Origin: Akkermansiaceae bacterium
Lineage (GTDB): Bacteria; Verrucomicrobiota; Verrucomicrobiia; Verrucomicrobiales; Akkermansiaceae
Length of the DNA stretch: 44,935 nt
Direction: 5' to 3'
Assembly: GCA_025362955.1 (NCBI GenBank)
Contig: JANYFB010000136.1
Coordinates: 1 to 44,935 of the forward strand
Positions within the stretch are counted from its first letter, which is position 1. The number at the start of each line of letters is the position of its first letter. Positions 253 to 27,378 of the stretch are shown here, piece by piece. A program made the position numbers and the translations under genes. The notes below the pieces were generated by a model. That model had not been told where the DNA came from. It did not search any database and saw only the letters and a list, made by a program, of their open reading frames with translations.

Positions 253-256
253 CGGA

Positions 257-2787: not shown

Positions 2788-2926
2788 ATCCCTGTGTTTT
2801 CAATCTACTCGGGAAAGAACCTAGAGGCCAGAACACAGAACTCAGAATCCAGACAAGAGTTTGGCGTAAGAATCTGAAATCTGCTCTCTGGTTTCTATGA
2901 TCTGATTTTTAAATTCTTCCTGAGTC

Positions 2927-2946
2927 GCGTCCATTGGCGTCCATTC
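2927..2946. repeat. Tandem 10-base repeat in intergenic DNA
   Basis: Two direct copies, GCGTCCATTG (2927-2936) and GCGTCCATTC (2937-2946), are followed by GCGG. The surrounding 2788-3018 stretch holds no gene. It also has a low-complexity run of CAGAA-type words at about 2831-2860, resembling dispersed intergenic repeats. Confidence 0.5.
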
Positions 2947-3022
2947 GCGGTTTCTAGGATCAAGGGGTTGCGCTGGCAGGGGTTTTTAGCAATTCTCATC
3001 CGGGTGTGGAAAATTCAAATGG

Positions 3023-3715
3023 ATGACGGCCTTTCTTTTCAGTTGTGACTATGCGACCTGCGCGGTGCCAGAGGCTTACCGGGAGATTTTCCGGGGGGCG
3101 GAGGATGTGGTGAGTTCCATGGCGGGCTGGGAGCCGGGTTCTTTGAATTTGGCGCAAGGATTTGCGATGAAATTTCGGACCCCGCTGGTCCACGGGGACG
3201 TGACTCGGCTGCTCATCGACCTCGGAAATGATGGCGATGCACGCTGGGGTAAATTTTCCTTAAAACTGCCGGAGGCGACGCGGGGGAAGGTGGCGGATCG
3301 GCATGAACGGCCCTATCGGCTGGTGCTGAACCAGCGGATCGCCGAGGATTTGCGGCGTCATGAGGCACTTCTGCATGTGATGATCCACACGGATGCCAAG
3401 ACGGACGGGACTGTGGTGTTAGAATCGCCGGTAGGAGCGGAGTTGGCGGAGAAATTCGCGGGTGCGTGGCGCTCGCGACTGGCAGCGGCGGACGTGGACG
3501 TCCGGCAGGCGACGGGAGTGGCGCTCGGATCTCTAGCAGCCGCTCTCAGCGGAGCCTATCCGCCGGATCGCTATGCCCAAGTGCGGCTCTCGGTGTCTCA
3601 AACTTTTTTCCTGGAAGGGCGGCCGTGGCGTTGGGAAACCCTGAAGAAAGTCCTGCTAGAGTCGCTGGTGCTCGCAGGCGGGGAAGTGGCTGTTAGTGAC
3701 CTAACAATCCCTTAG
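3023..3715 (+). CDS. N-formylglutamate amidohydrolase-like protein, altered metal-site motif
   Basis: The 230-residue protein aligns by eye with the FGase family over its full length. It has FLFSCDYATCAVPEAYREIF at the N terminus, then VTRLLIDLGND, ERPYRLVLN, and LHVMIHTDAKTDGT, where relatives have the second conserved histidine segment. The family hydrolyses N-formylglutamate or related amides with a metal. Relatives normally read C-[DE]-H-[AG]-x-N in the first motif; here His is replaced by Tyr and Asn by Cys, so a key metal or catalytic ligand appears missing. The gene may encode an inactive or changed-function paralogue. Its 3' end overlaps the convergent lipoprotein gene by 23 bases. 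Family membership is fairly likely; enzymatic activity is doubtful. Confidence 0.6.
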   Translation: MTAFLFSCDYATCAVPEAYREIFRGAEDVVSSMAGWEPGSLNLAQGFAMKFRTPLVHGDVTRLLIDLGNDGDARWGKFSLKLPEATRGKVADRHERPYRLVLNQRIAEDLRRHEALLHVMIHTDAKTDGTVVLESPVGAELAEKFAGAWRSRLAAADVDVRQATGVALGSLAAALSGAYPPDRYAQVRLSVSQTFFLEGRPWRWETLKKVLLESLVLAGGEVAVSDLTIP

Positions 3716-7935: not shown

Positions 7936-8706
7936 ATGCGCTCATCATCGTACGTCCTAGCCTTTTGTCTAACTTCCGCACTCCTGCTTGCCAGCCCCCC
8001 TGCCAAGGCGCAGTCCGTTGACGAACTCGTCGCGAAGGGCGACGTCTGCGATGCCAGTTTTCGTGCGAACGACGCGCTGAAGAGTTATCTTCCCGCTGAG
8101 AAGCTCGAGCCGGATAACGTCGATATTCTCGTTAGAATTGCGAGGCAGTACCGCCACTTGATGACTGATGCCGGAAACACCAATGAAAAACTCAGGCTCG
8201 GTGCCATCGCCCTCAGCTACGGTCAAAAGGCCGCAGCACTCGCGCCTAACAATTCCGAGGCGCAACTTTCCCCTGCCATCACTTACGGCAAGATGCTGCC
8301 CTTCGAGGGGAAAAAAGAACAGGTGGACGCCACGCCGCGCATCAAGACTGCGGCGGACCGTGCTCTGAAGCTCGACCCGCGCAATGATACCGCTTGGCAT
8401 GTGTTAGGCCGTTGGCATCAATCGCTCGCCAATGTCAGCGGGGTCAAGCGTGCGGTCGGAGAGGTGCTCTACGGCAAGCTTCCCGTCGGCACCAACGCGC
8501 AGTCGATTGCCTGCTTTGAGAAAGCCATCGCCATCAATCCGCGCCGCCTCCGACATTATATTGAGGAAGGGCGCACCTATGCTCAAATGGGCGATCCCAT
8601 CACCGCCCGCCGCTTTATCGAAAAAGGCATGGCCATGCCGAATCAGGAAAAAGACGATCCTGAGATCAAGCAGCGGGGGAAGGACACCTTGGCGAAGCTG
8701 CCCTGA
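7936..8706 (+). CDS. Exported TPR protein, RMD-like
   Basis: A signal peptide (residues 1-25, ending PPAKA) precedes about 230 residues of TPR-like helices. Examples are AKLEPDNVDILVRIARQYRHLM-type segments, YGQKAAALAPNNSEAQL, AADRALKLDPRNDTAWHVLGRWHQ and SIACFEKAIAINPRRLRHYIEEGRTYAQMGD. The WHVLGRWHQSLANVS segment followed by ALxxFEKA-like repeats resembles the regulator of microtubule dynamics (RMD) type TPR family, which also occurs in bacteria with unknown function. It follows the amidase gene by 54 bases and could share its transcript. It converges on the asparagine synthase gene with a 16-base gap and no visible terminator. Confidence 0.75.
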   Translation: MRSSSYVLAFCLTSALLLASPPAKAQSVDELVAKGDVCDASFRANDALKSYLPAEKLEPDNVDILVRIARQYRHLMTDAGNTNEKLRLGAIALSYGQKAAALAPNNSEAQLSPAITYGKMLPFEGKKEQVDATPRIKTAADRALKLDPRNDTAWHVLGRWHQSLANVSGVKRAVGEVLYGKLPVGTNAQSIACFEKAIAINPRRLRHYIEEGRTYAQMGDPITARRFIEKGMAMPNQEKDDPEIKQRGKDTLAKLP

Positions 8707-8722
8707 GATCAGCGAATTGCCC

Positions 8723-10684
8723 TTAGTCGGCCGACCACACCGGCAGGTCTGCCAGAGACCCGTCAATGAACGTATGATGCCAAAGCTGAGTGGCTACCAC
8801 GGCGGCGAGGCCCATTTCAACAGACAGGCGGGGGAGTGAATTGGCCCGCATTTGGCGGAAGGCTTTGCGCCAATGCTGGACTTGGGCGATGTCGAAATAA
8901 CCGGTGCGGCGGAGGGAATCTTCGCTGAGAAGTTCGCCAACGAATTTCGGCTCCGGGTCGATATGGAAACTGTCGAGTGGGGCGCGGAAAATGACCTTAT
9001 GGCGGCGGGCAATTTCGGGCGGTAGCCAGCGATCCGCGACGAGGCGTAGCAGGTGCTTGTCGCGGAAGCCTCGTAGTTTCCATTTTGGATGGAGTTTGGA
9101 GGTGAAATCGAAGACATCTTCATCGAGAAATGGGTAGCGCACTTCGACCGAGGAATGCATCGCCACGCGGTCGCCTTTGGCTTGAAGGAGATGCCCGGCC
9201 AAGGTGACTTTTGCTCCCACCCAGAGGCCGCGGTTGAGGGGGTGCCAGTGTTTTGCGCGATCCCGGTCTAGGCCGAGGTCGGACCATGGGCTGGAATTTG
9301 CGAGGACTTCTCGCATCGGCTCGGCGTAAAAGCGGAGTTTTGCAAGAGCGAGGACGCCGTAGGAATCAATCCACGCATTCGGGCCACCGACAATTTCCTC
9401 AAGGCCACTCCGGAACCCTGCCGGGTATTGCGGCACTTCGAAATGCTTGAGATACGCGCGGCGGGCGACGTCGCTGAGGCGCATCCCCGGCACCATGTCG
9501 AGAATTCCCAAAATTTTCGCGATCTTATACCATGGGTAGCCAGCCAGCCATTCGTCCGCGCCTTCGCCTGTTAGGACGACTTTTTGCCCGCAGGAATGGA
9601 CGCGGCGGGCAAGCATGAGAAGAGCCGCGCAAGAGGTATCGATCACCGGAGCTTCGGCAGCTTGGATGAGTTGAGGATACATTTCCAGCGCATCGCTGGC
9701 CCGGAAATCTTGGACAATCGGCGGCTTGGTACCGATGTGTTTGGCGGATTGATTCGCCCCGCTGAGTTCGTCGAGGGCGGGATCATCCACACGGACGGTG
9801 TAGGTGTTGATGGCTGGCCCTTTGAGCTTGCAGGCCATGGCCACGATCATGCTGGAGTCCAGCCCACCTGATAGATAGGCGCCCACCGGGACATCGGCAC
9901 GGAGGCGCTTTTCCACCGCGTTGAGTAAAATTTGCTCGAATTCATCCACCAGCTTGCGCGGGTCAGTCTCTGGGTTTTCATCGCCCTGATCCGGGAAATC
10001 CATTTGCCAGTATGTCCGGTCTTGGATCACCGTTGTCCCGTCATTTCCCGGAGTGATTTGTAAATAATGACCCGGTGTTAGCATTTGGATGCCTTCAAAA
10101 CAAGTCACCGGGCCGGGCATCGCGGCGAAGGTGAAAATGTGATCAAGCCCGCGCAGATCGGCCTTGGGGATGAACATTCCCGAGGCAAGGAGACCTTTGA
10201 TTTCCGAGGCGAAAAGCAGCCAATCACCCTGCCGCGTCCAGTAAAGTGGGCTGATTCCGAAGCGGTCGCGGCCTAGATTGAGTTGGTGGCGGCGCACGTC
10301 GTAGAGGGCGATTGCGAATTGCCCTCGCAGCCGCTCAAACATGCCCTCGTGGCTTTCCTCCCACAGATGCGGAATGATTTCCGTATCGCAATGAGTGACG
10401 AGGCGATGGCCGCGTGAGGCGAGTTCCGCGCGTTTTTCTACATAGTCGAAAAGCTCGCCATTGAAGACGACAAAGGCGCTTTGGTCCTCATTGGTCATCG
10501 GCTGTTGGCCGTCCGCCAAGCCGACAATGCTGAGCCGTCGAGAGGCCATTGAGATCCCTGGCCGGTGAAAAAATCCTTCTTCATCCGGGCCTCGGTGAAC
10601 GATTGCGCGGGACATCCGTTCTACCACTCCCTCGGGAACCGATCGCCTGCCCGCCAGATCCATCACGCCTGCTATTCCGCACAT
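8723..10684 (-). CDS. asnB: Asparagine synthase, glutamine-hydrolysing
   Basis: The N terminus MCGIAGVMD exposes Cys2, the nucleophile of class II glutamine amidotransferases. RRLSIVGLADGQQP, NGELFDY and the Asp in CDTEII complete that domain. The C-terminal synthase domain has the ATP pyrophosphatase loop YLSGGLDSSMI (around residue 270), then LTGEGADEWLAGYPWYK and VRYPFLDEDVFDF. The enzyme makes asparagine from aspartate, ATP and glutamine. At 653 residues it matches the AsnB group that also amidates secondary metabolites or cell-envelope precursors. It is divergent from the PKS gene with about 220 bases between starts, so shared control is possible but unproven. The ATG at 10684 is fixed by the need for Cys2. 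Confidence 0.93.
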   Translation of the reverse strand: MCGIAGVMDLAGRRSVPEGVVERMSRAIVHRGPDEEGFFHRPGISMASRRLSIVGLADGQQPMTNEDQSAFVVFNGELFDYVEKRAELASRGHRLVTHCDTEIIPHLWEESHEGMFERLRGQFAIALYDVRRHQLNLGRDRFGISPLYWTRQGDWLLFASEIKGLLASGMFIPKADLRGLDHIFTFAAMPGPVTCFEGIQMLTPGHYLQITPGNDGTTVIQDRTYWQMDFPDQGDENPETDPRKLVDEFEQILLNAVEKRLRADVPVGAYLSGGLDSSMIVAMACKLKGPAINTYTVRVDDPALDELSGANQSAKHIGTKPPIVQDFRASDALEMYPQLIQAAEAPVIDTSCAALLMLARRVHSCGQKVVLTGEGADEWLAGYPWYKIAKILGILDMVPGMRLSDVARRAYLKHFEVPQYPAGFRSGLEEIVGGPNAWIDSYGVLALAKLRFYAEPMREVLANSSPWSDLGLDRDRAKHWHPLNRGLWVGAKVTLAGHLLQAKGDRVAMHSSVEVRYPFLDEDVFDFTSKLHPKWKLRGFRDKHLLRLVADRWLPPEIARRHKVIFRAPLDSFHIDPEPKFVGELLSEDSLRRTGYFDIAQVQHWRKAFRQMRANSLPRLSVEMGLAAVVATQLWHHTFIDGSLADLPVWSAD

Positions 10685-10903: not shown

Positions 10904-13900
10904 ATGTCCCGCCTCGAAGACTCGCTCCCATCATCACCGCCATCTCTGCAATCTATCAACCGGGAAGGGAGAAAAGAAGGAATCGCCATCGTGGGGATCG
11001 GCTGCCGTTTTCCCGGAGGCGTGAATGACACTGAGGCTTTTTGGAAATTGCTCGTGGAAGGTCGGGATGCGGTTTGCGAGGTGCCGGCGGATCGCTGGAA
11101 CGTGGAGCGGTTCTATGATGCGGAACCCGGATTGGCCGGAAAGACGGTGGCCAAGCGTGGCGGATTCATCGAAGGAATCGACCAATTCGACCCGCAGTTT
11201 TTCGGCGTTTCCCCTCGCGAGGCACCCTATATCGATCCTCAACAAAGGCTGCTGCTAGAAACGGCATGGGAGGCGATTGAAGACGCGGGGATCATTTTGG
11301 ATTTTGAAAACGGCACGGACATCGGTGTGTTCGTCGGGGTTTCTCACAATGATTACCAAGGACTCCAGCACACCGCTACCGACCGCGCGGGCATCAGTGC
11401 CCATACGCCCACCGGCAGCGCCCATAGCATCGCGGCCAACCGGATTTCCTACTGTCTAAATCTAACCGGCCCCAGCATCGCCATGGATACCGCGTGCTCG
11501 TCCGCCCTTACGGCGGTGCATGTGGCCTGCGAACACATCCTTGCAGGGCGCTGTAAATCCGCGATGGCGGGCGGCGTCACGGTGATGATCACCCCTGACG
11601 GATTCATCGGATTTTCCCAAGCCGGGATGTTGTCGCCCGAGGGAAAATGCAAGGCCTTCGATGCCTCGGCTAACGGCTTCGTGCGCGGCGAGGGTGCGGG
11701 CATGGTGATGATGAAACGCCTCTCCGATGCCATTGCGGACGGGGATCCGATCCACGCGGTGATCATCGGTTCGGCCATCAATCAGGACGGCCACACGAAT
11801 GGAATTTCTCTCCCGAGTCCTGACGCGCAAGCGCGATTGGTGCGGGACGCGTGCGTGGACGCGGGCATCGATCCTTCGCATGTCGGCTACATTGAGGCCC
11901 ACGGCACGGGCACTGCGGTGGGGGATCCCATTGAGGCCCATGCTCTGGCGGAGGCGCTTTGCAGGGAGCGCGCGGCGGATGCTCCACTGGTCATTGGCTC
12001 CGTGAAAACCAACTTGGGGCATTTGGAAACCGCTTCCGGCGTGGCGGGACTTGTCAAGGCGGCGCTGGTGCTCAAGCACGCCCGCATCCCGGCAAGCCTC
12101 CATTTTGAATCCCCCAATCCTAACATTGACTTTCCCGCGCTGAAACTCCGCGTGGCGACGGAGAATGAACCATTTCCGAACACCGGGGCACTTCGCATGG
12201 CAGGTGTGAATTCATTCGGCTTCGGCGGGGCGAACGCGCATGTGATCCTTACGGAATCGCCGAGGCGTGCATCGCCGGTGAATCACGAAATTCTAACTAC
12301 ATCTAACGACCGTTCGTGGCCTTTGGTTCTATCAGCCCGATCTGAAGAGTCTTTGTTAGCCGCCGCGTGGAAATTGAGCGCGTGGATGGACGATCATTCA
12401 AAACTCAATGGCAGCTCGCCGTCGTTAGCGGATCTCACCTTCATGCTCGGGGCGCGTCGTAACCACCATTCCTACCGCCTCTCCTTGACCGCAAGCTCGG
12501 TGGCGGAAGCGGTGCAGGAATTGGGTGCCTACTCATTGGAAAATCCGGGTGTGAAACTTCGCACCGCCTTTTCACCGCGCCGCGAGCAAGCGGCGCGCGT
12601 GGTGTTCGTCATGAGCGGCCAAGGCCCGCAGTGGTGGGGCATGGGGCGCGAACTCATGCGCCATGAACCGGTTTTCCGCCGGATGATCGAAGCGTGTGAA
12701 GAAGCCATGAGACCGTGGGCGAAATTTTCCCTGCTAGATGAACTCTCCCGCTCGGAAGGCGATTCGCAAATGCAGCGGACTGAAATCTCCCAGCCCGCGA
12801 TTTTCGCCATGCAAATGGGTCTGGCGGAACTATGGAAATCCTGGGGCGTGAAGCCTGCTGCGGTCGTAGGCCACAGCGTCGGCGAAGTCGCCGCAGCCTG
12901 CGTGGCGGGAATTCTCACACTGGAACAGGCCGCGAAAATCATCGTCCATCGCGGGCTCTACATGGATGAATGTTCCGCAGCAGGCGGCACCATGTTAGCT
13001 GTGGGGATGAGTCCGGAGGAGGCTCATGCGGTCATCGCCCGCCATGATCGGAATGTCAGCATCGCGGCATTCAACGGCCCGCGGTCGCTTACTCTATCAG
13101 GTCTCAGGACGTCGTTGGAAGCAATCGCTGCCGAGCTCGAGGCGGATGGAATTTTCGCCCGGTTCCTGCAAGTCAGCCACCCTTTCCACCATGCGATGAT
13201 GCAGCCTGCCGCCGATGCGCTCAAGGCAGTGCTTGATGATCTAACACCGAAAACTGAAACGTTGCCGTTTTTCAGCACCGTGACCGGCAAGCGCCTTAAT
13301 GGTACCTCGTGCACGGCGGATCATTGGTCGCGCGGAGTCCGGCAACCGGTGGAATTCGCCCCGGCAATGAGTGCTCTAGCGGATTTTGGCGTGGATGTCC
13401 TGTTGGAAATCGGCGCTCATCCCGCCTTGGTGCGTTCGATTCAGGAATGCCTATCGCCTCATGGCTCGAAGGCCGCCGTCCTCGCCTCGGTCCGCCGCGA
13501 GCGTGAACACGAGTCGATGCTGGAGACGGCGATGGACTTGCATCTAGCAGGAGTGGAGTTGGACTTCGCCGCGCTGACCCCATCTCGCAAGCTGTTGGAT
13601 TTACCGGCCTATTGCTGGGACAAGAGCCGGTGGTGGAATGAAACCGCAGATATGCGCGAAGGGCGTCTCGCGCCGGGTGGTCGCGGATTTTTGGACGTCC
13701 GTTTGTCGCGAGCTACGCCCACGTGGATTGCGCGGCTCGATGGTCGGCACATGGCCTTCCTTAAGGATCACCGGGTGGAAAATCTCATCGTATTTCCTGC
13801 TGCGGGTTTCGTGGAGATGGTGCTTGAAGCGGGGATGCAGTTGTTCGAAGGCAAGCCCTTCGTGGTGGAGGATTTTGAAATTCGCAAGCCGTTGATTCTG

Positions 13901-16900
13901 CCGGACCCGCCATCAGGATTACTGCTGGAAATAAGCTATGAGCCGGGCGAGCGCACGTTTTCCATTCAGAGCCGCTTTGAAAACGGTGCGTCGTGGTCGG
14001 TGCATGTCGTGGGATCGATGCGTGGTGAGCGGACCGAATCCTCATTCGCCACCTCAACGTGGGAGAAATCAACTTTGGATGGGGTGGAACTCGATGCGTT
14101 TTACGGCCACATGAGCGACTTGGGACTGCGCTACGGCGAGGAGTTCCGCCCGATCCGCGAACTCTCGGCAAGTGGCGGAAAATCAGCGGGCCGGGTTTCT
14201 CTATCCGAAACGATTGCAACTCGAGCGGCGGAATATCCGCTGCATCCCGTGCTTTTCGATGGCGCGTTGCAAATTTTTTCCGCCGGTGCATCGACTGTCG
14301 AAGGCCGCACCGCCGGATTGCGTTTGCCCGTCCGCTTTGCTAGAATTCTTTTCCTGCGCTCGCCCGGAGCTTCCAGCCTTGTTAGAGCCGGAGTGAAGGT
14401 GGCCAACGATGAACTCGTCGAGGGCGGCATTGATCTGTATGATGAAACGGGCCGACCCTGTGTCCGCATCGACGGTTTCCGCGCGATCAGCGTGGAGGGC
14501 GGACGCCGCACCGGAAAAACCGGCAAGGGTCGCGATCTCGTCTATCATGTCGCGTGGGAGAAGGCTGCCTCCGAAGCAAAAGTCGTCGCCAAGGAACCCG
14601 TGCCATTGGCCCGTATGATGGAGGTGGCCCGCCAAGCACTTGATGAAGTTTTCGACATGCGCGGACGCGACAATCTCTCCTCCGCCAGCGCTGCGGGCGA
14701 CGAGCTAACAGCTGCACAGGTTGCGAATGGATTGCGCGAGATGGGCGCGGGCAACCAGGTCAATGATTCATTCACGGCGGACTCGCTGGATGTGGCGGAG
14801 TCGATGAGAGCGTCGTTCCGGCAATTGGCGGACAATCTGGTGCAGCACGACCTGCTCATCAAGGACGGCGAAGGTTATCGTCTAACATCGGCCTTCATCA
14901 CTGCCGCTGACTCCGCGACAAGCCTGTTGAGCAGGAGCATCGGAAACTATCCGGGCCATTTGCCGGAGGCGCTTCTCTGTGGATCGACGTGTGCGGAACT
15001 CGGTCCCATCATGCGTGGTGAGAAAGAAGCGGTGCAGGTGCTATTCACCGGCGGCGGCGCAGAACTTCTCGACCAATTTTACGGCGACGGTCTCGTCACC
15101 AGCCCGTGGCTTGCCGCAATCGGTCGGGCGGTCCAGGAAGCTGCTTACCACCTTCCAGCCGGTCGAGGTCTGCGAATTTTGGAAATTGGCGCAGGCACGG
15201 GTGGGCTAGCTTCGCAGCTGCTGCCTCTGCTAGAGAGAGGGCTGCACACCTACGTCTTCAGTGATATTTCCGCAGCGTTCTTCCCGGCTGGGCGGCAAAA
15301 ATTGGCTGCATTTCCCGAGGTGGAGTTCAAACAATTCGACCTCGAAAAACCCGGAGCCGATCAGGATTTTGAGCTAGCCTCATTCGACATCATCCTCGGC
15401 ACCAACGTCGTTCACGCGGTGAGCGATGTGCGTAAAACTTTGCAGAATATCCACGATCTACTTGTTCCCGGCGGGAGCTTGCTGTTCGTCGATGTCGCGA
15501 CTCCGCATTTGTGGTTGAACGCGGTATTCGGTCTAACCGGTGGCTGGTGGCGCTTCACCGATCACGATCTGCGTCCGACCCATCCTTTGTTAGAGCGTCA
15601 GCAGTGGGAAGTCGTGCTGCGTGAATCCGGCTTCAGTGAAACCGATTCCCTCTCCGGTCTTGCCCGCTCGCATGGCGGGGAAAGCCTGATCGGCCTGATG
15701 GCTCGAAAAGCATGGATCGAACCCGCGGCATCCGGACTAGCTGATTTGGAGGCACCTGCGGAAAAGTCTTGGCTTGTCTTCGCGGATGCATCCGGACTGG
15801 GCGACACCCTTGCCGCACGAATTCGCGCCAAAGGCGTCCGTTGCCGCGTCGCCCGCCGGGGACCTTCGTTCACGGCAGATAGAAACGAAGCATTCAGTCT
15901 TAGTGCGGAATCTCCCGATGATTGGAAAAAGTTATTGGAATCCTGCACGGATGAAACACCCGAGCGCTTTGTCTTTCTGTGGAGCCTTGATGAATCCGAA
16001 CCTGACTCCAGCAAAGAGGCCGCCATGTTGGGCACTGACGCTTTGTTCCATCTAACACAAGCGCTCCATGCATTGAATGCGGCTGCGAAATTGAAGATCG
16101 ACGTGGTGACGCGTGGAGCGCAAGCGGTCGGCCTTCGTCAAACAGTGGCGCTGGCGCAAGCTCCGTCCATCGGCCTGATGCGGGTGATCGCCAATGAATA
16201 TCCGAATTTTACGTGCCGGGGAATCGATCTGCCCAGCCTGATGTCAGCCGAGGATGACCTGTTACTTTGGAATGAATTGCAGCAAAAGGACACCGAGCGC
16301 GAAATCGCATTGAGGGGCGAGGCTCGATACTTCCGCCGCATCAATCGCGGTCTCCAACCGCGCGAACAAGTATTAGATCGCTCCGTGCCTCTTCGTTTGG
16401 AATCCCGCGAGCGAGGATTGTTAGATGCACTCCGTCTCGTCCCCTTCGCTTTGCCGCCATGCAGTCCGGGCGAGGTGGTCATTGAGGTCATGGCGGCGGG
16501 CATGAATTTCCGCGACGTGCTTAAGGCCCTGGCGCTTTATCCGGCGGAAACTGCGGATGCCCGGATCTTCGGCGATGAAGTGGCCGGCGTGATCAGGGCT
16601 GTCGGTGAAGGTGTCACCCATGTGGCTCCCGGCGACCGGGTCTTCGGCCTCGCCGTTTTCGGCCTGGCGACCTATTCGATGGCGAGGGCCGGGGACGTCA
16701 GGGCCATCCCTAACGGACTGTCATTCGAGGAAGCGGCGACCTTACCGGTGGTTTTCATGACCTCATGGCACGCGCTGAAAACCGTGGCGAATTTGAAAGC
16801 GGGCGAACGGATTCTGATCCACGCCGGGGCCGGTGGCGTCGGGATGGCGGCGATTCAGATCGCGCATCATCTCGGAGCGGAAGTCATTGCCAGCGCGGGT

Positions 16901-18631
16901 AGCCCGGCGAAACGCGCTCTGTTAGCTGTCCTCGGGGTAAAGCATGTGATCGACTCACGCCGCGCGGACTTCGCCGAGGACGTGATGGAAATCACCGATG
17001 GAAAAGGGGTGGACGTGGTGCTCAACGCGCTCTCCGCCGAAGCCATCCCCATGGGCCTTTCCTGCCTCGCGCAATTCGGCCGCTTTATCGAAATCGGCAA
17101 GCGCGATATCTATCAGAATTCCCGCATTCCATTGTGGCCGCTACGTAAAAACGCCTCGTTCCATGTGGTCGCGATGGATGCCATCTTCAGCGGCGATGAG
17201 GCACAGACCCGCGATCTGTTGGAAAAAGTCGCGTTGTTAGTCGAGCAGAACGAATTGCAACCGCTTCCCTTCCGCTCGTTCCCCGCATGTCGGATTGACG
17301 CGGCGTTTCGCATCATGGCGCAGGGCAAGCACACCGGGAAAGTCATTGTTTCGTTCCCGGAACCTTTCGTCGCGAGACGTGGAGAGCCCTTAGCTCCGGC
17401 CTTTGAGGTGAAAGCGGATGGCTGCTATCTGATCACCGGCGGCTTCGGTGGATTCGGAAAAGTCCTGGCAGAGTGGTTGGTCGATTGTGGTGCGAGACAT
17501 CTCGCGCTCACCGGTCGCAGTGGTGCGTCAGCACCCGAGGCCCAAGAGTTTCTCGTCAAGTTGAAGAATCGTGGCGTGGAGGTAATCGTGATAAAAGCAG
17601 ACGCTGGATCGCCGGAAGATGTGACTAAAGTGTTAGCGGAAATTTCATCCGCCGGCCATCCGCTCAAGGGCGTGTTCCACCTCGCCATGGTAATCGACGA
17701 CGCCCCCATTTCCGTCCTCAATCGCGAACGGATGCGCAGCGTCCTCGCGCCGAAAGCGCATGGTGCATGGCTTCTTCACCAAGGAACCCTCGGCATGGAC
17801 CTCGATTGCTTCGTGATGTTCTCGTCCATTTCGAGTGTCTTCGGAAACTCGGCTCAAGCCAATTATGCGGCGGCGAATGCTTTCCTCGATTCACTCGCCT
17901 ATCATCGCCAGTCCCTCGGCATGCCCGCGCTCGTCATTAACTGGGGCGCACTTGGCGGCGAAGGTTATGTCGCCAGAAACGAACGGGTCGCGGAATACCT
18001 CGCCCGCTCGGGAACCACGCCTCTAACACCGGGAGAGGTCGTGGTGCTAACAGAAAGTTTCCTCAATGCTGGGACCACCCAGGCCTTGGCGTTGCGAGTG
18101 GATTGGTCCAAGTGGCGGCAGTCGTTCCGTGGCAGTCAGGAAAGCCCGTTGCTGGAAAACATTTACGCCGCAGGCGTCGAAGGCCCGGAAAATAGCGGTG
18201 CCAAAAGCGATTGGCGGGTTAAAATCGAAGCCGCAGCTCCAGCAGACCGCATCGACGTCATTGGCCAAGCCGTGCGTGATGTCGTCGGCTCGGTGTTGCG
18301 GGTGAAGCCCGAAGGCCTGCGCTTGGACCAACCTTTAACCGACCTCGGACTCGACTCGCTGATGGCGGTGGAAATTGAAAACTCCATCGAGAGCGGCATC
18401 GGAGTTGCTTTGCCGCCTGCCAGCCTGATGCGCGCCCGAACCATCGGCCAAATCGCCCTTCTCATTTCCGAGCACATGGGCGGCGCCGATGCCACCAGCG
18501 TTTCCAAAACGCTCGCTTTAGCCGCGGTGGAAGAATCTAACATCGAAGTGGACGTGGACGCGCTTTCCGACGACCAAATCGACTTGCTGCTAGGCGACAG
18601 CCCGGAACCTGCCTTGGAAACCCGATTCTAA
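10904..18631 (+). CDS. Type I polyketide synthase, KS-AT-DH-MT-ER-KR-ACP, single fully reducing module
   Basis: Numbering is from the ATG at 10904 (2575 residues); an upstream TTG at 10856 is possible. Domains in order: ketosynthase with Cys198 in DTACSSA, EAHGTGT and TNLGHLE; acyltransferase with Ser658 in GHSVGE and SHPFHHAMM, which suggests malonyl-CoA; dehydratase with His956 in DHRVENLIVFP (Asn where Gly is usual) and Asp1119 in LFDGALQ; C-methyltransferase with LEIGAGTGG near 1425-1433; a structural KR-like segment; enoylreductase with NFRDVL and HAGAGGVG near 1973; ketoreductase with TGGFGGFG at 2178 and Ser2308/Tyr2321, its VIDDAPI suggesting a B-type alcohol; carrier protein with Ser2485 in LGLDSLMA. 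The C-terminal tail has LSDDQIDLLLGD. There is no thioesterase. The architecture matches iterative highly reducing PKSs that make methylated saturated chains. Confidence 0.96.
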   Translation: MSRLEDSLPSSPPSLQSINREGRKEGIAIVGIGCRFPGGVNDTEAFWKLLVEGRDAVCEVPADRWNVERFYDAEPGLAGKTVAKRGGFIEGIDQFDPQFFGVSPREAPYIDPQQRLLLETAWEAIEDAGIILDFENGTDIGVFVGVSHNDYQGLQHTATDRAGISAHTPTGSAHSIAANRISYCLNLTGPSIAMDTACSSALTAVHVACEHILAGRCKSAMAGGVTVMITPDGFIGFSQAGMLSPEGKCKAFDASANGFVRGEGAGMVMMKRLSDAIADGDPIHAVIIGSAINQDGHTNGISLPSPDAQARLVRDACVDAGIDPSHVGYIEAHGTGTAVGDPIEAHALAEALCRERAADAPLVIGSVKTNLGHLETASGVAGLVKAALVLKHARIPASLHFESPNPNIDFPALKLRVATENEPFPNTGALRMAGVNSFGFGGANAHVILTESPRRASPVNHEILTTSNDRSWPLVLSARSEESLLAAAWKLSAWMDDHSKLNGSSPSLADLTFMLGARRNHHSYRLSLTASSVAEAVQELGAYSLENPGVKLRTAFSPRREQAARVVFVMSGQGPQWWGMGRELMRHEPVFRRMIEACEEAMRPWAKFSLLDELSRSEGDSQMQRTEISQPAIFAMQMGLAELWKSWGVKPAAVVGHSVGEVAAACVAGILTLEQAAKIIVHRGLYMDECSAAGGTMLAVGMSPEEAHAVIARHDRNVSIAAFNGPRSLTLSGLRTSLEAIAAELEADGIFARFLQVSHPFHHAMMQPAADALKAVLDDLTPKTETLPFFSTVTGKRLNGTSCTADHWSRGVRQPVEFAPAMSALADFGVDVLLEIGAHPALVRSIQECLSPHGSKAAVLASVRREREHESMLETAMDLHLAGVELDFAALTPSRKLLDLPAYCWDKSRWWNETADMREGRLAPGGRGFLDVRLSRATPTWIARLDGRHMAFLKDHRVENLIVFPAAGFVEMVLEAGMQLFEGKPFVVEDFEIRKPLILPDPPSGLLLEISYEPGERTFSIQSRFENGASWSVHVVGSMRGERTESSFATSTWEKSTLDGVELDAFYGHMSDLGLRYGEEFRPIRELSASGGKSAGRVSLSETIATRAAEYPLHPVLFDGALQIFSAGASTVEGRTAGLRLPVRFARILFLRSPGASSLVRAGVKVANDELVEGGIDLYDETGRPCVRIDGFRAISVEGGRRTGKTGKGRDLVYHVAWEKAASEAKVVAKEPVPLARMMEVARQALDEVFDMRGRDNLSSASAAGDELTAAQVANGLREMGAGNQVNDSFTADSLDVAESMRASFRQLADNLVQHDLLIKDGEGYRLTSAFITAADSATSLLSRSIGNYPGHLPEALLCGSTCAELGPIMRGEKEAVQVLFTGGGAELLDQFYGDGLVTSPWLAAIGRAVQEAAYHLPAGRGLRILEIGAGTGGLASQLLPLLERGLHTYVFSDISAAFFPAGRQKLAAFPEVEFKQFDLEKPGADQDFELASFDIILGTNVVHAVSDVRKTLQNIHDLLVPGGSLLFVDVATPHLWLNAVFGLTGGWWRFTDHDLRPTHPLLERQQWEVVLRESGFSETDSLSGLARSHGGESLIGLMARKAWIEPAASGLADLEAPAEKSWLVFADASGLGDTLAARIRAKGVRCRVARRGPSFTADRNEAFSLSAESPDDWKKLLESCTDETPERFVFLWSLDESEPDSSKEAAMLGTDALFHLTQALHALNAAAKLKIDVVTRGAQAVGLRQTVALAQAPSIGLMRVIANEYPNFTCRGIDLPSLMSAEDDLLLWNELQQKDTEREIALRGEARYFRRINRGLQPREQVLDRSVPLRLESRERGLLDALRLVPFALPPCSPGEVVIEVMAAGMNFRDVLKALALYPAETADARIFGDEVAGVIRAVGEGVTHVAPGDRVFGLAVFGLATYSMARAGDVRAIPNGLSFEEAATLPVVFMTSWHALKTVANLKAGERILIHAGAGGVGMAAIQIAHHLGAEVIASAGSPAKRALLAVLGVKHVIDSRRADFAEDVMEITDGKGVDVVLNALSAEAIPMGLSCLAQFGRFIEIGKRDIYQNSRIPLWPLRKNASFHVVAMDAIFSGDEAQTRDLLEKVALLVEQNELQPLPFRSFPACRIDAAFRIMAQGKHTGKVIVSFPEPFVARRGEPLAPAFEVKADGCYLITGGFGGFGKVLAEWLVDCGARHLALTGRSGASAPEAQEFLVKLKNRGVEVIVIKADAGSPEDVTKVLAEISSAGHPLKGVFHLAMVIDDAPISVLNRERMRSVLAPKAHGAWLLHQGTLGMDLDCFVMFSSISSVFGNSAQANYAAANAFLDSLAYHRQSLGMPALVINWGALGGEGYVARNERVAEYLARSGTTPLTPGEVVVLTESFLNAGTTQALALRVDWSKWRQSFRGSQESPLLENIYAAGVEGPENSGAKSDWRVKIEAAAPADRIDVIGQAVRDVVGSVLRVKPEGLRLDQPLTDLGLDSLMAVEIENSIESGIGVALPPASLMRARTIGQIALLISEHMGGADATSVSKTLALAAVEESNIEVDVDALSDDQIDLLLGDSPEPALETRF

Positions 18632-18637
18632 CCGCGC

Positions 18638-19996
18638 ATGGGCCAAGACCACCGAGCACGGCTGAAGCAATTGTTAGAGAGTGGGGAGATCCGACTCCAC
18701 CCGCTGACTTTTCCGCAACGTGAATTATGGGAGGCGTCGCCCGTACCAGTCGCAGACATCTCTAACAATGTGTGCGCCATGATTCATGTGCGAGGCTTGC
18801 TAACCCAACAAGGCAGCGAGGCGGCCTTGCAAAAAGTGATAGATCGTCAGGAGGTATTCCGGCTTTCGTTCCTTCCCGGCAAGGAGCAACCCATGCAGAT
18901 CACACGGAAAACTAGCAAAATTACTCTGCATTTCCGCCAACTCCCGGCTTCTCAGAATCATCCCGAAGCCATCGAAGAACTCGCGAAGGAAATTTTCCAG
19001 CAACCCTTCGATCTCGTTCAGGGTCCGCTCTATCGGGCGGAGGTGTTTCGGCGTTCCGAGGATGATCATGTGCTGGTGTTAGCGATTCATCATTCGATTG
19101 CGGATGGCTGGACGCTGGGGGTGTTCGTGCAGGACCTTTTTGCGGCTTATTTGCAGGATGTGAAAGGAATTCTAACAGGTCTGCCTGCGGTGCCGCTGTC
19201 CTACACCGCATGGGGTGCTGCGGAGCGTGCCTTTTGGCAGCCAGCGGAATTGGAAAAACGTGGCGCTTATTGGAAATCCAACCTCGCCGACGCACCTCGA
19301 CTTTGGAGTCCGCCATCTGACCCAACTACGATTTCCAGTGTGCTACAACGTTGCGCTTCCCCCATCCCCGCCGCTCTCGGTCGCGCCGTGCGTGAATTGG
19401 CCCGTCGCCACGGTGCCACGCTTTTCAGCACGCTCCTAACAGTATTTCAAATCACCCTTTCCAAATGGACGGGTGCCGACGACATCGTGGTGGGCACTCC
19501 GGTCGCCAATCGGAACAAGCAGGCGGTCCGCGAGACGATGGGCTATTGCTCCGGCATCGTCCCTTTGCGCGGCCTGATTGACCGCACCCGCTCATTTTCC
19601 CGCAGCCTTCAAATGATGCACACCGCGACGGTGGAATCCTTTGCCCATGCAATGCCATTCGTTGAGATTGTTAGGGCAACGGGAGATGCCCCCGCACCGG
19701 GCCGCAATCCGGTGTTCGAAGTGCGTTTCGCCCTGCAAAACCACCCGATTCCCGACATGTCCGTGCCGGGATTTTCTCTTAAACTTAGAATCCATTCCAG
19801 CGGAACGGCACGCTTCGACCTCGCCTGCGAGGTCACCGAAGACGGGGACGCCCTGGAAGTTGAATGGCTATTCCGGCAAAATCTTTTTTCTCTACGAGAC
19901 ATTCAGGAAATCGGGCGCATGTATGTCTCGGTGCTGGCGGACGTTTGTCGTTCTCCGGAAAATCTGATCTCTACCTTCATGACCGTATCGCAATGA
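18638..19996 (+). CDS. Stand-alone NRPS-type condensation domain (acyltransferase)
   Basis: The 452-residue protein is one condensation domain. It starts with the early motif LTFPQRELW, has the catalytic HHSIADGW at 151-158 (His152 and Asp156), WTGADDIVVGTPVANRN, and GYCSGIVPLRG where NRPS enzymes have the VNTLPLR segment. Condensation enzymes form an amide or ester between a carrier-bound acyl group and an acceptor. It begins 6 bases after the PKS, which lacks a thioesterase, so the likely role is to release the polyketide onto an amine or alcohol. The acceptor is unknown because no adenylation or second carrier domain is present. The last 4 bases overlap the desaturase start (ATGA). It is complete, with the catalytic motif intact. 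Confidence 0.9.
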   Translation: MGQDHRARLKQLLESGEIRLHPLTFPQRELWEASPVPVADISNNVCAMIHVRGLLTQQGSEAALQKVIDRQEVFRLSFLPGKEQPMQITRKTSKITLHFRQLPASQNHPEAIEELAKEIFQQPFDLVQGPLYRAEVFRRSEDDHVLVLAIHHSIADGWTLGVFVQDLFAAYLQDVKGILTGLPAVPLSYTAWGAAERAFWQPAELEKRGAYWKSNLADAPRLWSPPSDPTTISSVLQRCASPIPAALGRAVRELARRHGATLFSTLLTVFQITLSKWTGADDIVVGTPVANRNKQAVRETMGYCSGIVPLRGLIDRTRSFSRSLQMMHTATVESFAHAMPFVEIVRATGDAPAPGRNPVFEVRFALQNHPIPDMSVPGFSLKLRIHSSGTARFDLACEVTEDGDALEVEWLFRQNLFSLRDIQEIGRMYVSVLADVCRSPENLISTFMTVSQ

Positions 19997-20940
19997 GTTC
20001 CATAGAAATGTTAGATGGCCCGCAGGAGGTTCATTGGGTGAGCCGCTCGGCTTTCCAAATCGTGAGTATATCGATTTTGTGCACCGAGATCGCGTTGTTT
20101 CTCGTCTTGAATCGTGGGGTGTCGCTGTGGTTTGCACTGCCTTTCGTTCTGATCGCCAGCCATCTAATGCACGGCGCGGCGGTAGGCTTTCACGAGGCGT
20201 CGCACGGTCTCCTCCGGCGGAATCGGCGCTTCAATGAGTTTGACGGCGTCCTCATCGGCGTCATGAGTTTCATGAGTTTCAGCCTCTATCGCGCCGCACA
20301 TCAATCACACCATGCCCACTTCACTACCGAACGCGACGAAGAATTGTGGCCATTTGTTTTCACCACTACCCCGCGATGGGCGAGGATACTTGCGGCTTTC
20401 CTGGAACTCACCTGCGGTTTGATCTTCACGCCCGCACTTTTTCTGCGAACCTTCTTGCGCAAGGGCTCACCGATCCGCAGTCGGAAAGTCCGCCGCCGTA
20501 TTTGGATGGAGCTTGGACTGATCGTGGTGGTTTGGACGGGAATTCTAACCGCAGTCTATCACTTTCAGATCTGGCATTATTTCCTATGGATGTATTTGGT
20601 GCCCACGGTCATCGCCGGCAATCTCCAAAGCTGGCGGAAATACATCGAGCACGTCGGACTAACAGGCAGCACTGTGAACAGCGGCACACGCAGCATCGTG
20701 GCGAGGGGATGGAGCGGGCGGTTGATCGCATTCACACTTCTCCACGAGCCTTATCACGGTTTGCATCACATGCATGTGGGATTGCCTCATGCCGAATTGC
20801 CGAGACTTGCTGCAGAACTTGCTCCGCGTCATGAGGACGAGATCCATCCTTTCCCCAGCTACGGCCATGCCCTGCATCATCTCATCAAAAACCTCGCCGA
20901 CCCGCGGGTGGGGGCGCAGTGGAAAACTTCTAACAATTGA
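19993..20940 (+). CDS. Membrane fatty-acid desaturase/hydroxylase family protein
   Basis: The ATG at 19993 overlaps the condensation gene stop as ATGA and gives 315 residues; the upstream in-frame extension is not needed. Three histidine boxes bind the di-iron centre: HEASH (67-71), HQSHHAH (103-109) and HEPYHGLHHMH (251-261). Hydrophobic segments around 19-60, 78-95, 140-160 and 180-215 would span the membrane. By family knowledge the enzyme introduces a double bond or hydroxyl into an acyl chain or lipid using oxygen. Its position in the PKS operon suggests that it acts on the polyketide chain or its lipid conjugate. Desaturase and hydroxylase cannot be told apart here. Confidence 0.9.
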   Translation: MSSIEMLDGPQEVHWVSRSAFQIVSISILCTEIALFLVLNRGVSLWFALPFVLIASHLMHGAAVGFHEASHGLLRRNRRFNEFDGVLIGVMSFMSFSLYRAAHQSHHAHFTTERDEELWPFVFTTTPRWARILAAFLELTCGLIFTPALFLRTFLRKGSPIRSRKVRRRIWMELGLIVVVWTGILTAVYHFQIWHYFLWMYLVPTVIAGNLQSWRKYIEHVGLTGSTVNSGTRSIVARGWSGRLIAFTLLHEPYHGLHHMHVGLPHAELPRLAAELAPRHEDEIHPFPSYGHALHHLIKNLADPRVGAQWKTSNN

Positions 20941-20942
20941 TC

Positions 20943-21662
20943 ATGATGCGCTCCACCCCGACCTCCGATTCCTTTTCCAAGGATTGTATCTTTGAGGTGA
21001 AGGGTTTAAAAAAGGAATACGACGATGGCAAAGTGCAAGCGCTTCGAGGTGTGGATTTTCGCATTCATCAGGGGGAATTCGTAGCGATCACCGGCCCCAG
21101 CGGTTGTGGGAAAACAACTCTGCTTCAAATGCTTGGCGCGCTTGATTTCCCTAGCTCGGGAAACTTGCTCTACCGTGGAAATTCGCTCCCCGGCCTGCCC
21201 GATCCCGCTGCCTACCGTGCCCGCGAGATCGGAATCATTTTCCAAGCCTTCCACCTCCTGCCAACTTTCACCGCGAAAGAAAACGTCCAGTTGCCGATGT
21301 TCGAAACTGATAGGCCCCGCCCGGATAGACAAAGCCGCGCCATCGAATTGCTGAAACTCGTGGGACTGGAGCATCGCCTGGATCATTTTCCCGCAAAGCT
21401 TTCAGGCGGGGAAAGGCAGCGCGTCGCCATCGCCCGCAGTCTCGCCAATGGCCCATCCGTCCTGCTCGCCGACGAGCCGACGGGCAATCTTGACAGCGAA
21501 AACGCCCACCACATTCTCGACCTCATCATCCGTCTTTCCACGGAGCAGAACATGACCTTGGTGCTTATCACTCACGATCCGAGCATCGCACGCCGCGCCT
21601 CGCGGACTATTGAAATGATGGACGGGCACATCGTGTCCGACCAGCAGGCAGCCCCGATCTAA
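20943..21662 (+). CDS. ABC transporter ATPase, LolD/MacB type
   Basis: The ATPase has Walker A GPSGCGKT at residues 51-58, the Q-loop [18 protein letters not shown], signature [13 protein letters not shown], Walker B VLLADEP with TGNLDS, and the switch His in LITHD. The HLLPxxTAxENV pattern and TGNLD are typical of the LolD/MacB/FtsE group, which drive lipoprotein extraction or mechanotransmission rather than classical pore transport. The start is most likely the ATG at 20943, just after the desaturase stop; a TTG at 20937 and an ATG at 20946 are alternatives. It precedes its probable permease by 7 bases. I infer that it powers export of the cluster's lipid product. Confidence 0.93.
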
Positions 21663-21669
21663 CAACGTC

Positions 21670-22785
21670 ATGACCTTTTTCACCATCATCGTGCGCGGAC
21701 TCTGGCGGCGCCCCGTCCGCACCGGCCTCACGTTGGTGGGCATCTCTATCGGCATCGCCGCCGTCGTCGCGCTCGTCGGCATTTCCCGGGGATTCGAGCA
21801 AAGCTGGGCAATGGGAATGAAAGCCCGCGGCACAGACATCGTGGTAAGCAACATGGGCAGCGCCCTCGCCCCCAAGCCATTCAGCTCGTCCGTCCGGGAC
21901 CACATCGCCAGCATTCCGGGAGTTGCCGCCACCTGTGCGATTTTCGTCGATCTAACGAGCATTGAGGACTCATCCATGATGGTCGTCTCCGCCCGTGAAT
22001 GGGGAGGGTTTTCCTGGAAGAATCTCAAACTACTGTCCGGCCGGATGCCTAACGATTCGATGGAATCCGCCGTGGTCCTTGGTCAGAACGCTGCGGAAGT
22101 GCTTAAGAAAAAAATCGGCGATACCGTCCAAATTGAGGCCAAAGAATTATCCGTCGTAGGAATCGTCGATGGCGGTGCCCTGGTAGAAAACGGTTCGGTA
22201 ATCCTATCACTGCCTCTCTATCAGGAAATCTCGGGAAATGAAGGCAAGATTAACATCATCGATATCCGCGCCACTCCCGGTATGACCGCAGAAGAAGTGA
22301 AAAGTCTCTGTGCAAAAATCAACACTCTTATTCCCGAGGCTCGTGCCATGCCTGCTGGTGATAATGTCGGCAACAGCCAGGCCTACCGCTTCATCAGTGC
22401 CATGAGCTGGGGCACTTCGCTGTTGGCGGTCATTGTCGGCGTGCTTGGAGTCATGAACACGATGCTCATGACCGTTTTTGAACGGAAACAGGAAATTTGC
22501 ATCCTGCTAGCTATCGGCTGGAAGCGCAGCCGCATCATCCGGATGGTCCTATTAGAATCCGCCATGCTGGGATTTCTCGGCGGCATCGGTGGCGTCATCA
22601 TCGGAACCGTCGGGGTAAAAATTTTGGAAACCCTGCCCGCCATCCATGGCCTGCTTGAACCCGACCTGAGCGCTCGGCTTATGGTGATTTCCGTGGCCAT
22701 CGCCGTGATCGTCGGTGTGTTGAGTGGCCTCTATCCTGCATGGCGAAGCTCCCGACTCACGCCTAGCTTGGCCATGCAGGGTTAA
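21670..22785 (+). CDS. ABC transporter permease, LolC/MacB (FtsX) type
   Basis: The 371-residue protein has the MacB/LolC layout. There is one N-terminal membrane segment (about 15-35, VGISIGIAAVVALVGI), a large periplasmic domain of roughly 220 residues, and three C-terminal segments, including SLLAVIVGVLGVMNTMLMTVFER, SAMLGFLGGIGGVIIGTVGV and MVISVAIAVIVGVLSGLYPAW. The ERKQEICILLAIGWKRSRIIRMVL segment is the cytoplasmic coupling helix that meets the ATPase, and PAWRSSRLTPSLAMQG is the typical end. It pairs with the LolD-like ATPase 7 bases upstream. Only one permease gene is present, so a homodimer of MacB type is expected. It probably lifts a lipid from the inner membrane, by inference from the neighbouring genes. 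Confidence 0.92.
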   Translation: MTFFTIIVRGLWRRPVRTGLTLVGISIGIAAVVALVGISRGFEQSWAMGMKARGTDIVVSNMGSALAPKPFSSSVRDHIASIPGVAATCAIFVDLTSIEDSSMMVVSAREWGGFSWKNLKLLSGRMPNDSMESAVVLGQNAAEVLKKKIGDTVQIEAKELSVVGIVDGGALVENGSVILSLPLYQEISGNEGKINIIDIRATPGMTAEEVKSLCAKINTLIPEARAMPAGDNVGNSQAYRFISAMSWGTSLLAVIVGVLGVMNTMLMTVFERKQEICILLAIGWKRSRIIRMVLLESAMLGFLGGIGGVIIGTVGVKILETLPAIHGLLEPDLSARLMVISVAIAVIVGVLSGLYPAWRSSRLTPSLAMQG

Positions 22786-22808
22786 AAATCTCTTTCTAAA
22801 TCAATTGC

Positions 22809-23600
22809 ATGAAAACAATCCTGATCCTCGCCGCCGCCGTCAGCTCGTTTACATTTACCGCGCGGGCGGCCGAACCTGCGCCTTCCGCGAAAGACCTGGC
22901 CGCCTCACTCAGTGCCCTTCAACAAGACGGCTCGGCCTTCGTTCGGCTCAAGATGGCCGTCAAGCCCGCAGGAGGTGGCCCGAAGACTGCCTTCCAACTT
23001 CAAATCAAACAACGCCGCACCAAGTCATCCACTGAGGTCGTCTATCAGGTGATTTGGCCCAAAGACCGCGCAGGTGAAGCCGTCTTGCTACGGCAATCGG
23101 GAAATGATGGAGGTAGCGGTTCGCAATTCCTGCCACCTAACACCCTCCGGCCTCTCGGTCAAATGAAGGATTCCCTTTTTGGCAGCGATCTGTCGTATGC
23201 GGATGTCCTCGAAAATTTCTTCGCCTGGGAAAATCAAACCATCGTCGGCACCGAAGTCGTGGACCGCGTGAACTGTCAAATCCTCGAATCCAAGCCCGGA
23301 AAAGACCAACACTCTGGGTATTCTGGAGTCCGCTCGTGGATCGACCTCCGCCGCCTTGTTCCCTTGCGAATCGAGAAATATTCTGCCACCAGCGCGTTAG
23401 TTAGACGGATAGACACTACGGATGTTGCCAAGGATGATATGGGCCGATCCATCCCAGCCAACCTTACCATTCAAAGCCCGCAAAAAGGTTCTGCCACGTC
23501 CCTCGAAGGCTCGAAGATCAAGCATGGCGTCACCTACAAGGACAGCGAATTCACCCCCGAGGGCATCAAGGAAATCACGCCTCCACCATCGGCTCCCTAA
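22809..23600 (+). CDS. Periplasmic LolA-like outer membrane lipoprotein-sorting protein
   Basis: A signal peptide (residues 1-20, ending FTARA) precedes a domain with VYQVIWPKDRAGEAVLLRQ, LPPNTLRPLGQMKDSLFGSDLSYADVLENFFAWENQTIVGTEVVDRVNCQILESKPGKD, VRSWIDLRRLVPLRIEKY and KHGVTYKDSEFTPEGI. The SLFGSDLSYAD...E and RSWIDLRRLVPLRIE patterns are those of the LolA-like lipoprotein-sorting family often encoded beside lipid exporters. LolA folds are half-open beta barrels that carry lipids through the periplasm. It is the last gene of the PKS operon, 23 bases after the permease. I infer a chaperone for the exported polyketide lipid. It is 263 residues and complete. Confidence 0.88.
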   Translation: MKTILILAAAVSSFTFTARAAEPAPSAKDLAASLSALQQDGSAFVRLKMAVKPAGGGPKTAFQLQIKQRRTKSSTEVVYQVIWPKDRAGEAVLLRQSGNDGGSGSQFLPPNTLRPLGQMKDSLFGSDLSYADVLENFFAWENQTIVGTEVVDRVNCQILESKPGKDQHSGYSGVRSWIDLRRLVPLRIEKYSATSALVRRIDTTDVAKDDMGRSIPANLTIQSPQKGSATSLEGSKIKHGVTYKDSEFTPEGIKEITPPPSAP

Positions 23601-26475: not shown

Positions 26476-27378
26476 ATGGCCCGCTCAATTTGGAAAGGTG
26501 CGATTGCATTCGGCCTGGTTAATATTCCCGTCTCGTTGACGAGCGCAGAAAGCAGACCTGATATTCATTTCCACATGGTGGACAGCAAAAACCACTCGCG
26601 CATCCGCTACGAACGAGTGAATGCAGACACTGGCGAGGAAGTGCCATGGGATCGCCTCGTGAAGGGGTATGAACATGAAGGCGGACAATTCATTCTCCTC
26701 ACCGACGAAGATCTAGGCGCGGTTCAGCCGAAGCTAACTAAAACTATTGAAATTTCCGAGTTCGTTTCCCTCGCCGATATTGACCCGCTTCTTTTCGACA
26801 AACCCTATTATCTGGAACCTGACAAACGCGGACTCAAGGCATACGCCTTGCTTCGCGAGGCTCTGAGAAAAAGCGGTAAAGCGGGCATTTCCCGCGTCGT
26901 CATCCGCACCCGCGAATATCTATCTGCGATGTTCGTCCGCGATGATGTCCTGATTCTCATGTTGCTGCGGTTTCCACAGGAAATCCAGGCTTCTTCCAAG
27001 CTTGATCTGCCCTCATCCAGCGATAGCAAATGGGAGCCGGTAAAAAAGGAGATGGATCTGGCCACACGTTTGATAGACGAAATGACCGCCAAATGGACGC
27101 CGGATGACTATCATGATGAATACCGCGATGCCTTGATGGATTTCATTGAAAAGAAGATCGCGGGTGGCGAGACCGTTGATGATGTGAAGCAATCGGATGA
27201 TGGCCGGGAAGAAGGAAAAGTTTTGGATCTGGCGGATTACCTCGAGCGGAGCATCAAACAGCCCGTCGGTCCTGCCAAGAAATCTCCCGCTGTGAAACCC
27301 CAAACACGCGCCAAGAGCGCCTCCACAAAAAATGCCGCCAAAAAATCCGCGAGCAAAAAAGGCCGCCGCACCGCTTGA
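26476..27378 (+). CDS. ku: Ku homodimer protein for non-homologous end joining
   Basis: The start MARSIWKGAIAFGLVNIPVSL is the signature opening of bacterial Ku. RIRYERVNADTGEEV, KGYEHEGGQFILLTDEDL and PLLFDKPYYLEPDKRGLKAYALLREAL follow in the expected order. Ku forms a ring that binds broken DNA ends and recruits LigD. The C-terminal tail (about 255-300) is lysine-rich (KKSPAVKPQTRAKSASTKNAAKKSASKKGRR), like the extended tails that aid DNA binding in some species. The 3' end overlaps ligD by 47 bases in another frame, so the two are cotranslated. The protein is complete at 300 residues. Confidence 0.97.
   Translation: MARSIWKGAIAFGLVNIPVSLTSAESRPDIHFHMVDSKNHSRIRYERVNADTGEEVPWDRLVKGYEHEGGQFILLTDEDLGAVQPKLTKTIEISEFVSLADIDPLLFDKPYYLEPDKRGLKAYALLREALRKSGKAGISRVVIRTREYLSAMFVRDDVLILMLLRFPQEIQASSKLDLPSSSDSKWEPVKKEMDLATRLIDEMTAKWTPDDYHDEYRDALMDFIEKKIAGGETVDDVKQSDDGREEGKVLDLADYLERSIKQPVGPAKKSPAVKPQTRAKSASTKNAAKKSASKKGRRTA

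Follow-up and report, generated by a model that had tools for sequence, protein, structure and literature searches.

A conserved Verrucomicrobiota gene cluster predicted to make a polyketide lipid and to export it with a LolA-fold carrier

Fungal highly reducing polyketide synthases (PKSs) of the LovB type carry a condensation domain behind the series KS-AT-DH-MT-ER-KR-ACP. In mycobacteria, export of the PKS-derived lipid made by the PDIM locus requires DrrABC together with the lipoprotein LppX (PMC11539658). The aryl polyene (ApeL/ApeM/ApeN) and flexirubin (LolA2/LolB2) systems are presumed to deliver their products to the outer membrane by means of a LolA-like protein (PMC8253772, PMC11885536). 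The enacyloxin pathway uses a stand-alone condensation protein, Bamb_5915, to free the carrier-bound polyketide, this protein being recruited by a short motif at the C terminus of the carrier subunit (PMC9113145). With regard to amidation, the trichostatin hydroxyamidotransferase TsnB9, which has the asparagine-synthase fold, and a relative of it use ATP and take a free carboxylic acid as substrate, which for TsnB9 is a polyketide acid (PMC13418202).

The locus described here was found on a contig of an Akkermansiaceae bacterium (GCA_025362955.1, JANYFB010000136.1), of which the whole stretch of 44,935 nucleotides analysed is referred to as the window. By the tests made, its cluster belongs to none of the PDIM, aryl polyene and flexirubin systems; it shares with them the principle of a polyketide lipid with a LolA-family carrier. 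These three systems are precedents in principle for a dedicated Lol-like route. As the initial annotation had supposed, no account of this gene set as a described pathway was found in the open-access literature; the cluster is apparently undescribed, yet its enzymes are of known families and its principle has precedents.

Six intact open reading frames occupy positions 10904–23600 of the plus strand, in the order and at the coordinates of the initial annotation, and Pfam agrees with it on every family. They encode a type I PKS with the single module KS-AT-DH-MT-ER-KR-ACP and no thioesterase (10904–18631, by Pfam domains), a stand-alone condensation-domain protein with an HHxxxDG motif (18638–19996; PF00668, 243.8 bits), a membrane protein of the fatty acid desaturase/hydroxylase family with three His boxes (19993–20940; PF00487), a LolD/MacB-type ABC ATPase (20937–21662; PF00005; TIGR02211, 234 bits), a type VII ABC permease specified by a single gene (21670–22785; PF12704 (MacB_PCD) and PF02687 (FtsX)) and a secreted LolA-fold periplasmic protein (22809–23600; PF17131, 85.8 bits). 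Successive genes are separated by 6, −4, −4, 7 and 23 bases. The small gaps first reported thus stand, as does one ATGA overlap, that of the condensation and desaturase genes; the overlap of the desaturase and ATPase genes is TTGA, the ATPase gene starting at this TTG or a few codons downstream.

The extent first given to the cluster holds for these six genes but was too short, as it missed further genes between 6589 and 10684. These encode an amidase-signature lipoprotein (6589–7881, plus strand; PF01425, 204.6 bits), a secreted TPR protein (7936–8706, plus strand; Pfam TPR) and an asparagine-synthase-type amidotransferase (8723–10684, minus strand, divergent to the PKS gene; TIGR01536, 396.8 bits). 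Neither a thioesterase nor an adenylation domain was found in the cluster with Pfam, and promoter and terminator scans at both cluster ends gave nothing above chance. The GC content of 0.575, compared with 0.567 on the other contigs of the genome, gives no compositional sign of recent foreign DNA. Elsewhere in the window, at 670–2240, a cas1 gene (306 aa) adjoins a long cas2 gene (228 aa), with no CRISPR-like direct repeats in positions 1–3100. Overlapping genes for Ku (26476–27378) and a three-domain LigD (27332–29668) form a bacterial NHEJ pair, and genes like those of type II secretion or type IV pili (T2SS F, T2SS E ATPase and secretin) lie at 36542–41816.

Among 84,980 named genomes of bacteria and archaea, a profile of the condensation protein picked out 64 loci at 44–75% identity, all of them in Verrucomicrobiota; beyond these, identity falls to 32% or less, in other phyla. 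The PKS gene lies directly upstream of the condensation gene in 46 of the 47 loci with at least 7.6 kb of upstream sequence. Where at least 5 kb was available downstream (45 loci), the desaturase gene was found in 43 loci, the ATPase and permease genes in 41 each and the LolA-like gene in 38. All six genes are present in the same order in 30 of the 38 loci having both flanks, which bears out the compact, conserved cluster that had been proposed and excludes a chance juxtaposition. As the order is conserved, and in Verrucomicrobiota only, these genes form a real cluster. Its transporter genes and desaturase gene are not universal, since the former are absent from some loci (L090, L101, L131, L138) and the latter from others (L099, L131). 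At L090 there is only a weak ATPase match in a wrong-looking frame, 3' of the desaturase gene (L090:12428–13578), with no permease after it, and the transporter of this locus is decayed or mis-assembled.

In a 388-genome sample of the phylum, close orthologs were confined to the window's own order, and the scan of named genomes also returned carriers labelled Chthoniobacter and Spartobacteria. Cultured carriers include Brevifollis gellanilyticus NBRC 108608 and Verrucomicrobium sp. BvORR034 and BvORR106; locus L117 is from Brevifollis gellanilyticus, and L112 and L149 are from Verrucomicrobium sp. Among 99 related genomes the PKS–condensation pair has a patchy distribution, being present in 20 when the window's own genome is counted. 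One genome (G092) has two such pairs (G092:C262, G092:C140), one of them with the full cluster.

With moderate confidence, this cluster can be read as a dedicated line for the synthesis, conjugation, amidation and export of a methyl-branched polyketide lipid. The description of the PKS as fully reducing and C-methylating was upheld, as its 46 orthologs keep the Cys-His-His of the KS, the GHSxG of the AT, the His and Asp of the DH and the motifs of the methyltransferase, ER and KR domains; the ACP serine is kept in 45 of the 46, the exception being one truncated sequence. The methyltransferase domain has a SAM motif, and the AT carries HPFH, which we take to be of the malonyl type, so that SAM would be the source of the methyl branches. 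Among solved structures, the PKS is closest to mycocerosic acid synthase (MAS), an iterative lipid synthase. Its single module would build a chain from malonyl-CoA, reduce it and methylate it with SAM, with the repeated use of the module, the chain length and the branching all predicted.

The domain order and the condensation domain that follows it are as in the LovB type; LovB is among the PDB matches, and its condensation domain is a distant match. This cluster departs from the LovB type in having the condensation domain on a protein of its own and ER motifs that are intact in cis, and in coming from a bacterium. The locus also resembles that for mycobacterial PDIM/PGL (MAS, PapA5, DrrABC, MmpL7, LppX) in combining a type I PKS of the lipid-making kind, a condensation-superfamily acyltransferase that stands alone, an ABC transporter and a LolA-fold carrier. 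It differs in that methylmalonyl loading gives way to a methyltransferase domain and an AT motif of the malonyl type, and in that the condensation protein is of the NRPS type and not a PapA (PapA5 model, 19.8 bits vs. a cut-off of 396).

This condensation protein is presumed to be a chain-releasing acyltransferase, and H151, H152, D156 and G157 of its HHxxxDG motif are invariant in 19 sequences. It was also considered as an NRPS fragment, a candidate that was rejected, since it is a stand-alone open reading frame throughout the clade and is 26–28% identical to the NRPS condensation domains of the genome. NRPS-like genes with condensation domains occur on other contigs of the same genome (G000:C209, with L002 and L003; G000:C162, with L004).

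Because the PKS has no thioesterase, its chain would be handed to the condensation protein, probably by way of the conserved PKS tail. The ACP is followed by a variable Ala/Pro-rich linker and then by this tail, an acidic segment that is conserved (VDxDALSDxxIxxLLG) and resembles a C-terminal docking motif. The condensation protein would then transfer the acyl chain onto a free amine or alcohol, both the docking and the nature of this acceptor being predictions. A stand-alone condensation protein recruited through a short C-terminal motif is also what is seen for enacyloxin; unlike there, no beta-hairpin docking domain is evident before the condensation domain here, and the parallel is therefore functional only.

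The three His boxes of the desaturase-family protein (HExxH, HxxHH and HEPxHGxHH) have histidines that are invariant in 20 sequences, and a comparison with solved structures found no relative. This protein, which may be a hydroxylase, would act as a membrane di-iron desaturase/hydroxylase that alters the chain.

Turning to export, the LolA-like protein has a confident model (pLDDT 91.0) that matches LolA-superfamily structures with Z scores of 22–27 over 220–231 residues and LolA and LolB proper with Z scores of about 9–14; LppX is among its weaker structural matches. Together with a separate LolC/E-like permease encoded elsewhere in the genome, this fold sustains the earlier view of a LolA-like carrier with an ABC transporter of its own. 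The LolC/MacB-like assignment of the permease held as regards the type VII family, but MacB and HrtB are as close to the permease as LolC is. When whole models were compared (pLDDT of the permease model, 82.7), HrtB, LolE/LolC and MacB matched about equally, and by sequence MacB came ahead of LolC in the PDB and NCBIfam comparisons. As HrtB and MacB match as well, the name LolC is too specific. The transporter and the LolA-like protein are nevertheless a dedicated pair, given the other LolC/E-like permease of the genome and the absence of a MacA-type adaptor or TolC gene among the Pfam-identified genes of the window.

When this pair is set beside the known transport systems, the Lol sorting system is matched in the LolA fold, whereas the ATPase falls below the cut-off of the LolD model (TIGR02211, 234 vs. 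307.75 bits) and that of the LolC/E model is also missed (TIGR02212, 44.4 vs. 362.45 bits). A housekeeping Lol operon was rejected on these scores and on the presence of the other LolC/E-like permease. The pair also differs from MacAB-TolC, as the ATPase and permease are separate genes and not one fused chain, and no adaptor family occurs among the window genes scanned. PDIM/PGL has a type V permease, in contrast to the type VII permease of this cluster, which has no RND pump, and the LolA-like protein here is of another subfamily. The aryl polyene and flexirubin clusters resemble this one as acyl or polyketide lipid clusters with a LolA-like carrier gene of their own; they use, however, dissociated FAS-like enzymes (ketosynthases, ACPs, dehydratases) and a LolB-like protein, and the aryl polyene system has an RND transporter where a LolD/MacB-type ABC transporter is found here along with a multidomain type I PKS.

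It is proposed that the ATPase and the permease, which presumably works as a homodimer, would withdraw the lipid from the inner membrane for transfer to the LolA-fold carrier, and that this carrier would cross the periplasm with it and deliver it to the outer membrane or the surface, with the direction of transport, the cargo and the outer-membrane destination all predicted. The fit of the permease to HrtB and MacB, which is as good as that to LolC/E, makes export of a diffusible compound possible. The product would then be a specialised metabolite, for example an antibiotic or a signal, secreted by the MacB-type transporter and only shielded in the periplasm by the LolA-fold protein, and nothing would stay in the outer membrane. 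We consider this rather unlikely, though it is the alternative to be taken most seriously. The better scores of the permease to MacB than to LolC are in line with it, as is the patchy distribution noted above, which is also seen with specialised metabolites, and an amidotransferase with an external amidase would suit the masking and unmasking of such a compound; the lack of a MacA-type adaptor or TolC gene among the Pfam-identified genes of the window argues against it, however, as do the resemblance of the PKS to lipid synthases and the presence of the LolA-like gene at almost every locus with the transporter.

Far less probable is a second alternative, in which the cargo of the transporter and LolA-like protein is a lipoprotein, such as the amidase of the cluster, and the polyketide acylates that protein. 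Lipoproteins are indeed what LolA and LolD families act on, the amidase is predicted to be one and a similar idea has been raised for the aryl polyene cluster (PMC8253772), but the transporter and LolA-like genes are kept in genomes that have no amidase, for example G085 and G059.

The preferred reading, that of a polyketide lipid which is also amidated, draws on the genes that lie upstream of the PKS. The amidase, TPR and amidotransferase genes recur in relatives with long flanks; two genomes (G019 and G029) have those for the amidase and the TPR protein directly 3' of the LolA-like gene instead. A divergent amidotransferase gene lies beside the PKS gene in 22 of the 40 loci with 10 kb available upstream, and a TPR gene adjoins the cluster in many loci. 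Among the 99 related genomes, amidotransferase orthologs (at least 67%) occur in 15 and amidase orthologs in the identical 15, both being absent from the other 84; the chance of identical sets would be 5e-18 if the genomes were independent, a figure that their kinship makes overstated. The condensation gene is present in 14 of these 15 genomes, and in the remaining one (G027) a 4.8-kb contig ends in the N terminus of a PKS that is divergent to the amidotransferase. The carriers are scattered over one genus and two others. As the amidase is still kept where it is on a separate contig (G030) or about 40 kb from the amidotransferase (G074), the co-occurrence is not mere hitch-hiking. Six genomes (G048, G054, G057, G059, G066 and G085) have the PKS and condensation genes without the amidotransferase and amidase, and represent a second variant of the cluster.

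The amidotransferase has an MCGIAG N terminus (Cys glutaminase) and an SGGLDSS motif. Its score exceeds the cut-off of the asparagine synthase model (396.8 vs. 267.1 bits for TIGR01536) and it could therefore make asparagine; that its distribution follows the PKS cluster argues for a substrate from the pathway rather than aspartate. Like TsnB9 it is of the asparagine-synthase type, and in the PDB a hydroxyamidotransferase (7ylz) matches it best, but unlike in the trichostatin system, genes for the amide oxygenase TsnB6/7 were not seen beside it. That the amidotransferase, amidase and TPR genes are housekeeping neighbours, the pathway consisting of the six plus-strand genes only, is the least probable of the alternatives, since the pass in the NCBI asparagine synthase model and the TPR paralogs also present in genomes without the cluster are set against orthologs of both enzymes shared by the same 15 genomes, all PKS-bearing, and by none of the other 84, and against the divergent placement beside the PKS gene.

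In the proposed amidation of the polyketide lipid, the amidotransferase would, in the genomes that have it, place glutamine nitrogen onto a carboxyl group of the product, its putative substrate, in the cytoplasm. The amidase orthologs have an N-terminal lipoprotein signal with a lipobox cysteine, and the TPR and LolA-like proteins have ordinary signal peptides (all read by eye). The lipoprotein amidase, which in its distribution coincides with the amidotransferase, may serve the maturation of the product by hydrolysing or transferring this amide once it is outside the cytoplasm.

The leftover open reading frames of the loci were clustered to look for further partners, and the clusters obtained were mostly wrong-frame or wrong-strand shadows of known genes. 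An alpha/beta-hydrolase lipoprotein family lies beside the cluster in some loci (L112:16495–19425, L093:12255–13853) and was not seen in the window; in Verrucomicrobium-type loci it is preceded by a weakly methyltransferase-like protein.

The PKS and condensation trees are in broad agreement. Two groups, both picked after the trees were seen, depart from this: L110/L117, with a condensation gene that is out of step with the PKS tree (AU p 0.007), and L132, with a transporter that is out of step with its PKS–condensation clade (AU p 5e-36). These departures reject in part the inheritance of the whole cluster as one strictly vertical block. This suggests that acyl-chain or acceptor parts have been exchanged under a constant frame of export and amidation.

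In the literature searched, the polyketides of Verrucomicrobiota come from invertebrate symbionts. It is a tentative proposal, and one we would not yet call likely, that the cluster represents a new envelope-lipid pathway of this phylum, in which a LolA-fold carrier and a MacB-type transporter would ferry a polyketide lipid rather than a lipoprotein, and in which an amide mask added in the cytoplasm would be removed or transferred outside it by a lipoprotein amidase. On the main reading, a lipid-like polyketide pathway would be spread across the phylum, cultured members included. The cluster also offers a compact test case of whether non-protein lipids are among the cargo of LolA-family proteins; this specialisation, according to the authors of the flexirubin study, remains to be tested (PMC11885536). 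The exact co-occurrence of the amidotransferase and the external amidase makes the proposed two-compartment maturation step directly testable.
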